Below are positions 3,804-21,253 of a DNA stretch of 33,328 nucleotides, piece by piece. Within the stretch, counting starts at the first letter, position 1, and each line of letters starts with the position of its first letter. The stretch is taken from positions 1-33,328 of IMG/VR virus record IMGVR_UViG_3300020193_000077; one strand, 5' to 3'. The notes beneath the pieces are model-generated. The model was not told where the DNA came from, searched no databases, and worked only from the letters and a program-made list of their open reading frames with translations. This DNA is from a virus. The translations under genes and the position numbers were made by a program.

Positions 3804-4631
3804 TTACAGGTTGTTGACCTGTGTTACGGTACAAATGACCGAGGGAATCGCGGGATAAACGCTTGTGGCGCTTGCCGCGTGTAAAACTACGTCAGCGTCG
3901 TCGCTTGACCACATCAATTCTACATAATTGCTAGGTTCAAGTTGGACAAGGAAATTCCACGCCGCTACCGATTCCGCTGCGGTGCCTTGGATGGCGACCT
4001 TGCCAGAGGTATTTGGCACGTTAGTGCCGTTTTTGCGTAGCCAGATGTGGATAGTGCCTGTTGATCCTGACGATTTGTCTAACTGGGCTGAAAACTGCAC
4101 GTTGTAAACGCCTTGCTCGTCTACGACAAGGCGCGAGGTCGGTGAACCAATGCTGATTCCGTTTGCCAAATCCGTCGTGTTGAACGTCATGGCATAGGCG
4201 GCATTGATAGAAACGATGGTTTGCGTGGTCGTGTCTGAAAACGCGCCGTAATGCAAAATCGGCACCGGGCGGCCAAAACCTTGCAATTCTTCCCACAGCG
4301 TATTGCTCACGGCGTAAAACAATGCCGAGCAGTCAGCGTTAATCGTGCCGTACGCTGCGTTATTGATCGTGCTATCGGCGCTGTAAGGGTAAACCGTCAG
4401 CGCGTTTGCGCCACCGTTCTTGATGATGATGGTTTCGCCCATCTCGGTCGGCGGCAACTTGACGCCCGCCCCTGCGGCAGTCGTCGTGACGTTGTTGTAC
4501 ACAAACGTGATGGCGGTGGCATCGCCTGCTGACGTACCCGCAGCCGTGACCGCCGCATTGCCATCGCCACAAATGGACACCGTGGACAGGCTATTAACGC
4601 CTGATCCTAAAACTCTGGACGGGATCGCCAT
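3804..4631 (-). CDS. C1q/TNF-like jelly-roll virion protein
   Basis: 275 residues in two parts. Residues 1-120 are a Gly/Ala/Thr-rich beta region ending in TLWEELQGFGRP, a pattern seen in phage and fibre-tip proteins. Residues ~125-275 look like a C1q/TNF-type beta-sandwich: YGAFSDTTTQTI, then MTFNTTDLANGISI, then VVDEQGVYNVQFSAQL, then IWLRKNG, then YVELMWSSDD near the end. Such domains form trimers that are surface-exposed on particles and often bind ligands. Start and upstream stop overlap as TGATG, so it is probably co-translated with the DUF115 gene. Likely a capsid or tail decoration; receptor binding is inference. Confidence 0.65.
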   Translation of the reverse strand: MAIPSRVLGSGVNSLSTVSICGDGNAAVTAAGTSAGDATAITFVYNNVTTTAAGAGVKLPPTEMGETIIIKNGGANALTVYPYSADSTINNAAYGTINADCSALFYAVSNTLWEELQGFGRPVPILHYGAFSDTTTQTIVSINAAYAMTFNTTDLANGISIGSPTSRLVVDEQGVYNVQFSAQLDKSSGSTGTIHIWLRKNGTNVPNTSGKVAIQGTAAESVAAWNFLVQLEPSNYVELMWSSDDADVVLHAASATSVYPAIPSVICTVTQVNNL

Positions 4632-5404: not shown

Positions 5405-5880
5405 TAGAAGCCCACGACGCCCGTTGCAACGTGCGGATAACCCGCCACGCAAGTCAACGCGGTCGCGCCAGAGGCGGTGGTCAGGGCAACGATGCCCTCA
5501 ACCAGCCCGCCGGTCACCGTGGCGTCGTCCAAGGTGCCAGCCGTTGCCGTCGTAAAGAGCGGAACAGCAGGCAAGCAGGACGCCGCAAGGTTAATAACCG
5601 GCTTGCCGCCCAACTGCACCCAGCCATACGAGGCCGAGGCAATGGACGCCTGAGCAAAGCCAACGGCCTTGCTGCTTGCCGAGTTAGTCGTGGTCAACGG
5701 CACAACGGTGTTGTCACCCTTTACCGACACCGCCATGTAGGTGCTGACGGTAGAGGCCGCCTGCACATAAATGGCCTGACCACCATCGTCCAAGTTCACG
5801 GTCGTGCCGGTCTTGAACTGTGCGGTCGTGTCGGAATAGCCGAGAGCCACGCCAATGAGATTACTAGTTGAAACAGCCAT
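5404..5880 (-). CDS. Probable capsid decoration/stabilisation protein
   Basis: 158 residues, almost entirely small and beta-favouring residues (Ala, Thr, Val, Gly), no transmembrane segment and no catalytic motif. It starts MAVSTSNLIGVALGYSDTTA and contains YVQAASTVSTYMAVSVKGD and a VGFAQASIASASYGWVQLGG block, a composition typical of small phage capsid cement proteins encoded next to the major capsid gene. A strong AAAGGAG box lies 8-9 nt before the ATG. That box begins right after the stop of capsid exon 2, which independently supports where the capsid gene ends. Decoration role is inferred from composition and position. Confidence 0.6.
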   Translation of the reverse strand: MAVSTSNLIGVALGYSDTTAQFKTGTTVNLDDGGQAIYVQAASTVSTYMAVSVKGDNTVVPLTTTNSASSKAVGFAQASIASASYGWVQLGGKPVINLAASCLPAVPLFTTATAGTLDDATVTGGLVEGIVALTTASGATALTCVAGYPHVATGVVGF

Positions 5881-5894
5881 TGTCGTGTACTCCT

Positions 5895-5969
5895 TTAAGC
5901 AATCAACACGCCTTGGAACTGGCTGCCCGAGCAGGTCAAATTACCTGCCCAGCCAATCAATTTCACAAT
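5895..5969 (-). CDS. Major capsid protein, exon 2 (24 codons plus stop)
   Basis: After removal of the group I intron the reading frame of exon 1 continues here in phase. It begins with IVKLIGWAGNLTCSG and ends at a TAA at 5897-5895, two bases before the AAAGGAG box of the next gene. The tail resembles the C-terminus I know from related phage capsid proteins (VKLI-WAGN-T, then QGVL). The hydrophobic, well-formed sequence would be hard to explain as chance noncoding DNA. Exon 1 plus exon 2 gives 339 residues. No independent start is needed, although an AUG overlaps the end of the intron (its G is the terminal intron G). Confidence 0.88.
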   Translation of the reverse strand: MVKLIGWAGNLTCSGSQFQGVLIA

Positions 5970-6210
5970 CATTCTGTTACTTCGCCTTTCGGCTACTGAC
6001 CACCTTTCGGTGGCGGGGCGACCTCTTCGGATCACCCTCTGCGGCTTCTTTGGTTATACCGCAGTTCAGACTATCGCATGGCAAACTGTTTTCGTTTGCC
6101 CCCTCTCACTTAGTCGTTCAGCCTGCTTTCGCTTGGCCCCTGTTGCCCGCTTCCGGGTTTCCAAGTCAATCAGAGAGGGTTTATAGACGCCATTAGTGAA
6201 TCGTAGGTTT
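5970..6210 (-). ncRNA. Group I self-splicing intron inside the major capsid gene (ORF-less)
   Basis: Read on the - strand, the complete core can be drawn. P1: exon AGACGCT (6217-6211) with guide GGCGTCT (6191-6185), leaving the required U.G pair at the 5' splice site. P3: CCCTCTC (6179-6173) with GAGAGGG (6107-6101). P4: CTTGG/CCAAG (6165-6161/6136-6132), enclosing P5 CCCG-GAAG-CGGG. P6: a short GC-GAAA-GC. P7: GACTA (6115-6111) with TAGTC (6073-6069). P8: GGCAAAC/GTTTGCC (6100-6094/6086-6080). P9: CTGCGG/CCGCAG (6064-6059/6044-6039). P9.1 follows, then two GAAA-capped hairpins. The intron ends at G5970. P10: exon 2 ATTG pairs with TAAT just before the guide. Splicing restores the capsid frame exactly. 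No endonuclease ORF fits inside. The subgroup was not determined. Confidence 0.93.
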
Positions 6211-7155
6211 AGCGTCTTGGTTGACCGCCTGACGTTCGCCGCCAATCGGCACAAAGTTGCGATCCTTGTGCGGACGGAACATCAGGTATTTGGTGGTTAA
6301 AAACCACATATGGTTAGCGTTGCCTGAACCGCTGTTGTAGGTGGACGAGCCGATACCACCGTCCAGCACCACGTCGGAGGCCATGCCTGCGCCGTAATAC
6401 TTGAGGGAGGCAAAGCCCGCGCCCGCCATGCCCGAACCACTCTCGGTAATACGCTGGATCGCCTGAAGCGATTGCAGGTAGAACTTGTAGTAGTTGTTGT
6501 CGGCCACGATCAGGTCAGGCTTGTCGGTTCCACGAACCAACTGCACCGCGAGGGCATCCATGTAGCCCTGAATCGTCGTGCTAGACACAGCGCCCGAACC
6601 ATCGGTAGTACCCGAGAACTTCTCAGACTGCCAGAACGACCACACAGCGCGATTGATGCCGCCGTAAGTTCCCGTTGTCGGGTCATCGGGGACTGCCGCA
6701 GCAAGACCCGTGAGGTTCTTACCCGCGTTGCCGGTGCCGTCACCGTACAGGTCACCGCTAATACGGTTCGCTAGCTGCGCTTCCGCAACCTCCATGCGAC
6801 CGTCAAGAAGGTCAATGATGGCCTCCTTGCCCGAGTTCTGGATCATCTCCAAACCCGAGATCGTCACGGCGCTAGCGTACTGCGTGATGGAGAACTGCGC
6901 CGAGCTGATCGGGCTGTTCTGTCCCACGTTCAGCACCTCAAAACCGCTGTACGAGTTGGTGTTGTTGGTGGTCGCATCGGTGTACATGATTTCTTGGAGA
7001 ATCACGTTTCCACCGCTGAACGTCTTAATATTGGAACGTTCTTTTAGCCGACGAAGCAACGCATTGTTGTTCGTCACGTTGTCAGCGAGTTCACCGCTAC
7101 GGCTCTGGATGGTGGTAGCAATGATGTCGCTGATACTAGAGTTGGCAAATGCCAT
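6211..7155 (-). CDS. Major capsid protein, exon 1
   Basis: 315 codons from an ATG at 7155 with an AAGGAG box upstream. The N-terminus (FANSSISDIIATTIQSRSGE) and the block NNALLRRLKER, then QEIMYTD, are those of a phage coat-protein family seen in podoviruses with P22-like portals. The last exon codons encode VNQDA. The unspliced frame runs only five more codons (KPTIH) into the intron before a stop at 6193, giving a 320-residue truncated form. Spliced length is 339 residues. It follows the scaffold gene, as expected for capsid assembly. The C-terminus must come from the spliced message, so an unspliced annotation would be wrong. Confidence 0.92.
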
Positions 7156-20575: not shown

Positions 20576-20982
20576 AGCGCATCTTTCCCATTGGCACGCT
20601 GCCCGACCAGATCGCCACCGCCGTCGTGCGGATGGCGCAGCACCTGCCGACCGACAAACCGTTTGCGGTGACGGTGGAGGTGTGGAAGAAACCGCGCACC
20701 CATCAACAGAACGCTTACCTTTGGGGCGTGGCATATCCCGCGATCCTTGAAGGCGGCGGTGAAATGCTTAGAGGCTGGAGCCGTGATGACATTCACGAAT
20801 ATATGGTGGGCGAGTTTGGCGGATGGGAGATGCTAGAGGGTTTTGGCCGCAAGCGGATGCGCCCGGTGCTGCGCTCCTCGCGGATGACCAAACAACAGTT
20901 TTCCGATTACCTTGACTGGCTGTCTGGCAAGTGTGCAGACATGGGCATCATTATCCCAGAGCCTAATTATGAACCTGCGTAG
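20572..20982 (+). CDS. ninB: NinB-like recombination protein
   Basis: 136 residues. The key block KKPRTHQQNAYLWGVAYPAIL (about residues 43-62) carries the RT-QQNA-LW pattern of NinB/Orf proteins, followed by HEYMVGEFGGWEMLEGFGRKR and SRMTKQQFSDYLDWL. NinB (lambda Orf) helps load annealing or recombinase proteins on DNA coated with single-strand binder, fitting its place beside ERF and the SSB-like gene. It overlaps the previous gene by 4 nt and the next by 14 nt. Confidence 0.85.
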   Translation: MKRIFPIGTLPDQIATAVVRMAQHLPTDKPFAVTVEVWKKPRTHQQNAYLWGVAYPAILEGGGEMLRGWSRDDIHEYMVGEFGGWEMLEGFGRKRMRPVLRSSRMTKQQFSDYLDWLSGKCADMGIIIPEPNYEPA

Positions 20983-21253
20983 CGAGGCCAAAGGCCGTGG
21001 CTGCATGGTGCGATTGCCGTGCTGCAACCACAATTCCGAAACGGTCGTGCTGGGGCATATTCGGATGGCAGGCATCAGCGGCATGGGCCATAAGTCTGAC
21101 GATCTCTTAGGCGCGTGGGTTTGTTCAACGTGTCACGCAGAAGTAGACGGCCAGACGCACGTTACAGGCTTATCCCGCGACGAGCTGCGCCTCGCTCACT
21201 TTGAGGGAATGGCGCGAACCATTGACCAGTTGCGAAAAGAGGGGCTGGTATGA
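20969..21253 (+). CDS. YbcO-like (DUF1364) putative nuclease with Cys/His motif
   Basis: 94 residues. It starts MNLRSEAKGRGCMVRLPCCNHN, then VVLGHIRMAGISGMGHKSDDL, GAWVCSTCHAEVDGQTHVTG. The arrangement of Cys and His (C..CC..H..CxxCH) and the phrase GHKSDDLLGAWVCSTCH match DUF1364/YbcO, a small beta-beta-alpha-metal nuclease family found in lambdoid phages. The ATG at 20969 was chosen because an in-frame upstream start lies inside NinB. Together with NinB it recalls the nin region of lambdoid phages. Confidence 0.82.
   Translation: MNLRSEAKGRGCMVRLPCCNHNSETVVLGHIRMAGISGMGHKSDDLLGAWVCSTCHAEVDGQTHVTGLSRDELRLAHFEGMARTIDQLRKEGLV

Follow-up and report, generated by a model that had tools for sequence, protein, structure and literature searches.

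Where does the major capsid gene end in the virus of IMG/VR record IMGVR_UViG_3300020193_000077? The whole stretch analyzed, hereafter the window, comprises 33,328 nucleotides. Open reading frame (ORF) calling gives an unspliced capsid frame at 7155-6193 on the minus strand, which encodes 320 residues ending in NQDAKPTIH and belongs to an Mx8-like major head protein (phrog_9953, hmmscan E=4.3e-95). A sequence-only reading had proposed that this C-terminus is wrong and that a 241-nt group I intron, invisible to ORF calling, splits the gene. Our analysis agrees with the proposed sequence and coordinates: segment 6210-5970 (minus strand) is almost certainly a compact, ORF-less group I ribozyme that is spliced out of the major capsid gene, restoring a 24-residue C-terminus.

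A 241-nt insert in the major capsid gene

The gene would be organized as follows, R1 being a covariance model built from the intron family described below.

6211..7155, minus strand: exon 1 of the major capsid gene, 315 codons (hmmscan match given above and spliced ORF)
5970..6210, minus strand: predicted ORF-less group I intron, 241 nt (empty sites, covariation and 152 bits with R1)
5895..5969, minus strand: exon 2, IVKLIGWAGNLTCSGSQFQGVLIA plus stop, 24 codons (follows exon 1 without a break in relatives lacking the intron and in cultured phages)

Excision of 6210-5970 produced, as predicted, a single frame across the NQDA junction, a 1020-nt ORF of 339 residues in which NQDA is followed by IVKLIGWAGNLTCSGSQFQGVLIA and which ends in NQDAIVKLIGWAGNLTCSGSQFQGVLIA. 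The unspliced frame stops five codons past GCT 6211 (KPTIH and stop). The stop codon of exon 2 (5897-5895) immediately adjoins the AGGAG of the next gene, which corrects the two-base gap previously placed before that ribosome binding site.

We have then compared the site with the best 80 capsid relatives from IMG/VR. An insert was present at exactly the same position in 10 of the 80 (L008, L010, L029, L061, L062, L064, L065, L072, L073 and L080), and the alleles occupied by the window's own intron type measured 241-245 nt. The remaining relatives read NQDA(I/V)VKL without interruption (GCN directly followed by ATT), apart from three that are incomplete there: L069 stops before the insertion site, and in L044 and L054 the sequence ends partway through exon 2. 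The tail was also uninterrupted in cultured phages about 50% identical to the window protein, namely Mx8 (ending in NQDAEAQILAWAGNLTCSGAQFQGRLIAE), BUCT555 (NQDAEVQILGWAGNLTTCGAQFQGRLDVNA) and ppBjS10J (NQDALVKLLGWMGNMTTSNMFLQGVLT). Thus, the tail belongs to the protein family and the insert is the addition. Its recurrence at one site in other phages, whose near relatives lack it, goes far beyond chance. Nearly all intronless homologues aligned with exon 2 carried the tail contiguous with exon 1, and together with the three cultured phages they contradict the notion that the family ends at VNQDA; the 320-residue protein ending in KPTIH is almost certainly the wrong annotation.

The alignment permits two placements of the insert, one base apart, and one alone has a U before the insert and a G at its end. 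The base preceding the splice site was T in 49/49 distinct intron-bearing alleles vs 10/61 intronless ones, a count in which kinship is ignored. This base is the last, synonymous position of an alanine codon and was C in 43, T in 10, G in 6 and A in 2 of the intronless alleles. The uniform T of the intron-bearing alleles matches the U required for the U.G pair of P1.

Fold of the insert and its conservation

Since an unrestrained minimum-free-energy fold cannot show the P3/P7 pseudoknot, we have relied on comparative counts, made on an alignment of 23 dereplicated, diverse introns of the same family (A1). The final G served to place the 3' boundary of the introns in A1. The elements assigned to the window copy are listed below, with percentages referring to paired cells.

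6211..6217, minus strand: P1 exon strand AGACGCU, the final U forming the U.G at the 5' splice site (T in 49/49 vs 10/61 alleles)
6185..6191, minus strand: internal guide sequence (IGS) GGCGUCU, P1', pairing 7/7 with its own exon
6192..6195, minus strand: P10 intron strand UAAU, pairing with exon 2 AUUG (5969-5966) and containing the in-frame stop (6195-6193)
6101..6179, minus strand: P3, 7 bp (6179-6173/6107-6101), enclosing P4-P6 and the 5' strand of P7; double changes in 6/7 pairs, 98% paired
Within 6120..6165, minus strand: P4 (6165-6162/6142-6139) and P5 (6157-6154/6149-6146); 98-100% paired, compensatory changes in P5
Within 6120..6165, minus strand: P6 (6138-6135/6123-6120) and P6a (6132-6131/6126-6125); 98-100% paired, compensatory changes in P6
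6069..6115, minus strand: P7, GACUA/UAGUC (6115-6111/6073-6069), predicted guanosine site, invariant in 23/23 family introns
6100-6094/6086-6080, minus strand: P8, 7 bp, inside P7; covaries in the capsid allele set and in the family
Within 5984..6064, minus strand: P9 (6064-6059/6044-6039) and P9.1 (6037-6030/6023-6016); both covary, 92-94% paired
Within 5984..6064, minus strand: P9.2 (6013-6009/6004-6000) and P9.3 (5993-5991/5986-5984)
5970..5980, minus strand: conserved 3' end GUAACAGAAUG with the terminal guanosine; GUAACA and the final G invariant in A1

The group I anatomy was thus found in order: a P1 with U.G, a P3-P8 core with P3 and P7 interleaved, the P7 site, and a terminal G5970 with P10 (UAAU/AUUG) at a junction that agrees, within one base, with that of the empty-site allele. 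All helices of the original proposal are present, and covariation supports them. The intron stretch folded 5.2 standard deviations better than its dinucleotide shuffles, with 0/200 as good. In A1, the named structure had 93.4% of cells paired (92-100% in the P3-P8 core helices) and changes on both sides in 37/56 pairs, a result reached by 0/500 shuffles, and control structures slid along the alignment had 39-44% of cells paired. The value for P1 (77%) is lowered by misalignment of copies with long loops. For the invariance of P7, the UAGUC side alone is independent evidence, as the extraction pattern demanded GACUA. Within the capsid set, P8 occurred as GGCAAAC/GUUUGCC, GGCGAAC/GUUCGCC and GACAAGC/GCUUGUC. 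Guide and exon also matched one another: 20 distinct exon/IGS pairs had a mean of 6.9/7 pairs with their own partner vs 3.6/7 when swapped, the former value being biased upwards because the 5' boundaries of those introns had been placed with the help of P1.

Based on this anatomy, the capsid transcript would fold through P1-P10 and bind guanosine in P7. The guanosine would attack after the U of P1, and the 3'-OH of exon 1 would then attack after the terminal G, so that the joining of NQDA to IVKLIGW would restore the conserved 24-residue C-terminus.

The stop of the unspliced frame lies inside the P10 strand, and its read-through KPT[IL]H is kept among alleles. Such conservation might reflect a deliberate partial splicing that yields two capsid isoforms (320 residues ending in KPTIH, and 339 residues), with an outcome like that of capsid-isoform systems. 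However, the read-through overlaps the P1 loop and the P10 strand, which accounts for its conservation, and most relatives do without it; we consider regulated isoforms improbable.

Group I membership and the remaining alternatives

Every testable part of the sequence-only reading held up but one, the covariance score above the Rfam threshold that it had named as a check: RF00028 matched nothing in the window with the limit relaxed to E<=10. T4 td, the textbook phage group I intron, scored 40.3 bits as a control, under the gathering cut-off of 50. Family member L130, of the same architecture, reached 35.3 bits (E=1.7e-5), and RF00028 matched 0/9 further loci, most of them with a confirmed family core. 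Because T4 td also fell under the cut-off, the RF00028 score is not diagnostic, and we have rejected Rfam as arbiter of group I membership. A study of Bastillevirinae states that RF00028 and the current subgroups under-represent phage introns (PMC11878797).

With R1 the window copy scored 152 bits, this copy (L122) being part of the model seed. Outside the seed, R1 weakly matched (26.5 bits, E=1.4e-4) a second intron that RF00028 detects in L098, together with its twins in L088 and L119; it gave no match to T4 td or to the intron of phage Romulus at E<=1. Group I membership therefore rests on anatomy, with sub-threshold model support in both directions. A group II intron was discarded, as the insert ends are AAACC..AAUG and not GUGYG..AY, and none of the group II models of Rfam matched at E<=10.

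The window intron resembles the IA2 introns of the T4 td/Twort type in its P3-P9 core and in a P7 of the GACUA/UAGUC type. The IA subgroups, usual for phages, have extra pairings (P7.1/P7.2) between P7 and P3'. In contrast, 3 nt separate P7 (ending at 6111) from P3' (starting at 6107) in the window, and there is no P7.1/P7.2. The P7'-P9 segment of the family consensus also resembled stretches of Staphylococcus and Aeromonas phages; the one that we checked, Romulus, is a ribonucleotide reductase intron.

Several points weigh against a spliced group I intron. The window copy lacks P2 and has a P4 of just 4 bp (with a P8 of 7 bp), and the core is consequently not textbook. RF00028 is silent on the window, the allele count disregards shared ancestry, and the guide-pairing score carries the bias mentioned above. 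Among the 54 family introns with automatic boundaries, 11 did not rejoin their exons in frame, possibly owing to short or truncated exons or to a misplaced boundary. Finally, we infer capsid splicing in vivo and autocatalysis from DNA.

Could the capsid truly end in KPTIH, the 241 nt being a non-spliced insertion that acts as a structured regulatory or terminator-like RNA, and the tail being dispensable? The frame does stop after five codons in every checked allele at this site, and the silence of RF00028 would fit. Yet phage introns commonly contain an in-frame stop near their start, which counts against this view. Both relatives without the intron and phages about 50% identical have kept the tail, exon 2 is intact and in frame beyond the insert, and without splicing P1, P10 and the splice-site U would have no role. 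We regard such an insertion as scarcely credible. A degenerate, inactive group I remnant, which the missing endonuclease and the sequence-derived nature of the predicted activity might suggest, is no more so, since P7, P4 and the 3' end are (nearly) invariant, the other helices compensate, and many phages would be left with a truncated essential structural protein if splicing were lost.

A wider family of phage introns

That the capsid intron of the window belongs to a large intron family goes beyond what had been claimed for it. One degenerate pattern (UGAUUGACUUGGAANCC ... AACGACUA) matched at least 119 IMG/VR stretches, from which at least 86 distinct copies were extracted. The 54 introns with automatic boundaries measured 195-245 nt, and 43 of them rejoined their exons in frame vs about 18 expected by chance. 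Representative host genes encoded major head proteins (phrog_9953, phrog_283 or P22 coat, phrog_1357 and phrog_14242), a P22-type portal and ribonucleotide reductase. By our own reading of the genes, a copy in Enterococcus sp. MMGLQ5-1 lies inside a tape-measure-like gene, and a Rhodanobacter plasmid copy, the sole and partial family member in the plasmid search, lies in ribonucleotide reductase. A BLAST search of 50,697 phage records found few carriers: MW202674, Roseobacter CRP-118 and two Desulfovibrio phage records. Mycobacteriophage ArcherNM had a 24-nt match at its genome end. Chance matches of a GGGGCCAAGCGAAAGC scan in ordinary coding DNA (e.g., L085 and L094), which had no P7, were discarded. 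The family is thus large, and most of its copies sit in capsid genes, from several unrelated families, of uncultured phages, sometimes with several introns per gene.

The effect on annotation is visible in MW202674.1 (L123:2942-3209), where a related intron splits the P22 coat gene into two annotated coding sequences (CDSs), UOF80249 and UOF80250, in line with the expectation that such inserts are hidden from ORF calling. Removal of 268 nt gave one P22 coat ORF of 415 residues. A 5' splice site at TTTTTGTT was rejected as it breaks the frame; GUGGAU/GUCCAC yields the full-length coat protein. This intron has 75% nucleotide identity to the window intron over 86%; it differs in its unrelated capsid family and site, a P2-like hairpin and the annotation as two CDSs.

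A second, different ORF-less group I intron was present at capsid codon 83 in L088, L098 and L119 (RF00028, 56.2 bits for L098). In L098 (2834-3056, minus strand), inspection by eye placed it after an exon ending in CCCAU, with IGS GUGG and P10 UAGU/ACUA.

Stacking was most extensive in L329:3278-6565 (JAJFUZ010000398, a Parachlamydia-labelled metagenome-assembled genome), a phage capsid gene with six exons and five family introns. The joined ORF has 316 codons (phrog_1357, E=4.7e-22), and the introns, of 336-627 nt each, together exceed the coding sequence. A small ORF occurs in every intron, and in four or five of the introns it lies in P6 (e.g., in the P6 loop at 4023-4325). One of these ORFs is a DUF551 protein (E=1.5e-7) and some others appear similar by eye, so an intron-encoded role for DUF551 proteins is possible; we found no papers on DUF551 within group I introns. 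At least three family-model matches within a few kb were also seen in L349:2736-4906, L267, L270, L249, L239, L301, L263, L291 and L232, which suggests multi-intron genes.

Phage capsid genes are already known to harbor group I introns, and the window intron is a further example. That of mycobacteriophage LittleE, whose splicing was demonstrated by RT-PCR and protein sequencing (PMC3706429), likewise lies in the major capsid gene of a tailed phage, after an exon ending in U, and ends in G; unlike the window intron, it has 819 bp and a putative endonuclease ORF. The same paper cites a capsid-gene group I intron in Tuc2009, and describes a 265-bp intron in a minor tail gene of mycobacteriophage BAKA that is spliced in infected cells (PMC3706429). 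The BAKA intron shares with the window a virion gene and the lack of an endonuclease, and differs in the tail gene and the unrelated host group; both mycobacteriophage comparisons draw on the published descriptions. In crAss-like phages, Delta/Zeta major capsid proteins have several group I introns per gene, with up to four interruptions (PMC7886860). Those introns were found via endonuclease domains, a route that ORF-less introns would escape.

As had been predicted, we found no endonuclease ORF in the window intron: the frames overlying 5970-6210 are one of 62 residues (6066-6254, minus strand), which overlaps exon 1, and an antisense one of 113 residues (5855-6196), and 241 nt leave no room for a known endonuclease. 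In Desulfovibrio phage 7757/SRB7757 (L354:2196-2700), the core of a family intron is followed by an ORF resembling an HNH endonuclease (phrog_5351, E=0.001). The compact intron may therefore be a derived version, or one that needs help in trans. A small stand-alone HNH gene in the window (20912-21253, plus strand; phrog_131), which neighbors a NinB-like gene and is some 15 kb distant from the intron, was rejected as the helper, as nothing ties its action to the intron. Phages with window-type introns share 94-98% identity in the intron and 79-89% in capsid exon 1. This fits lateral spread, and strong RNA constraint could contribute. Such introns would have spread as mobile DNA or RNA, either through an endonuclease acting in trans or by co-conversion during phage recombination.

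The traits of the family are the lack of P2 in most copies, a 4-bp P4, an invariant UGAUUGACUUGGAA core start and the absence of P7.1/P7.2. The family appears to be undescribed: in the openly accessible papers searched (GISSD being outside this scope), no description of it was found. It is an even call, in our judgment, whether the window intron stands for a group I subgroup not yet described. Such a subgroup would be common across uncultured tailed phages, would mostly go unseen by Rfam and would cluster in capsid genes from four or more families; it would have repeatedly invaded the same genes, with as many as five copies in a single capsid gene, and would have left many environmental capsid annotations truncated or split.

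Phages express few genes more strongly than those for capsid proteins, which also serve as markers; with an ORF-less intron in such a gene, the annotated protein is truncated or split unnoticed, as MW202674 illustrates. The family shows that phage ribozymes in large number go undetected by the standard Rfam model, and the 23-sequence alignment is a ready model for finding them. It also raises the question of how introns without an endonuclease move from phage to phage, and why they enter capsid genes.
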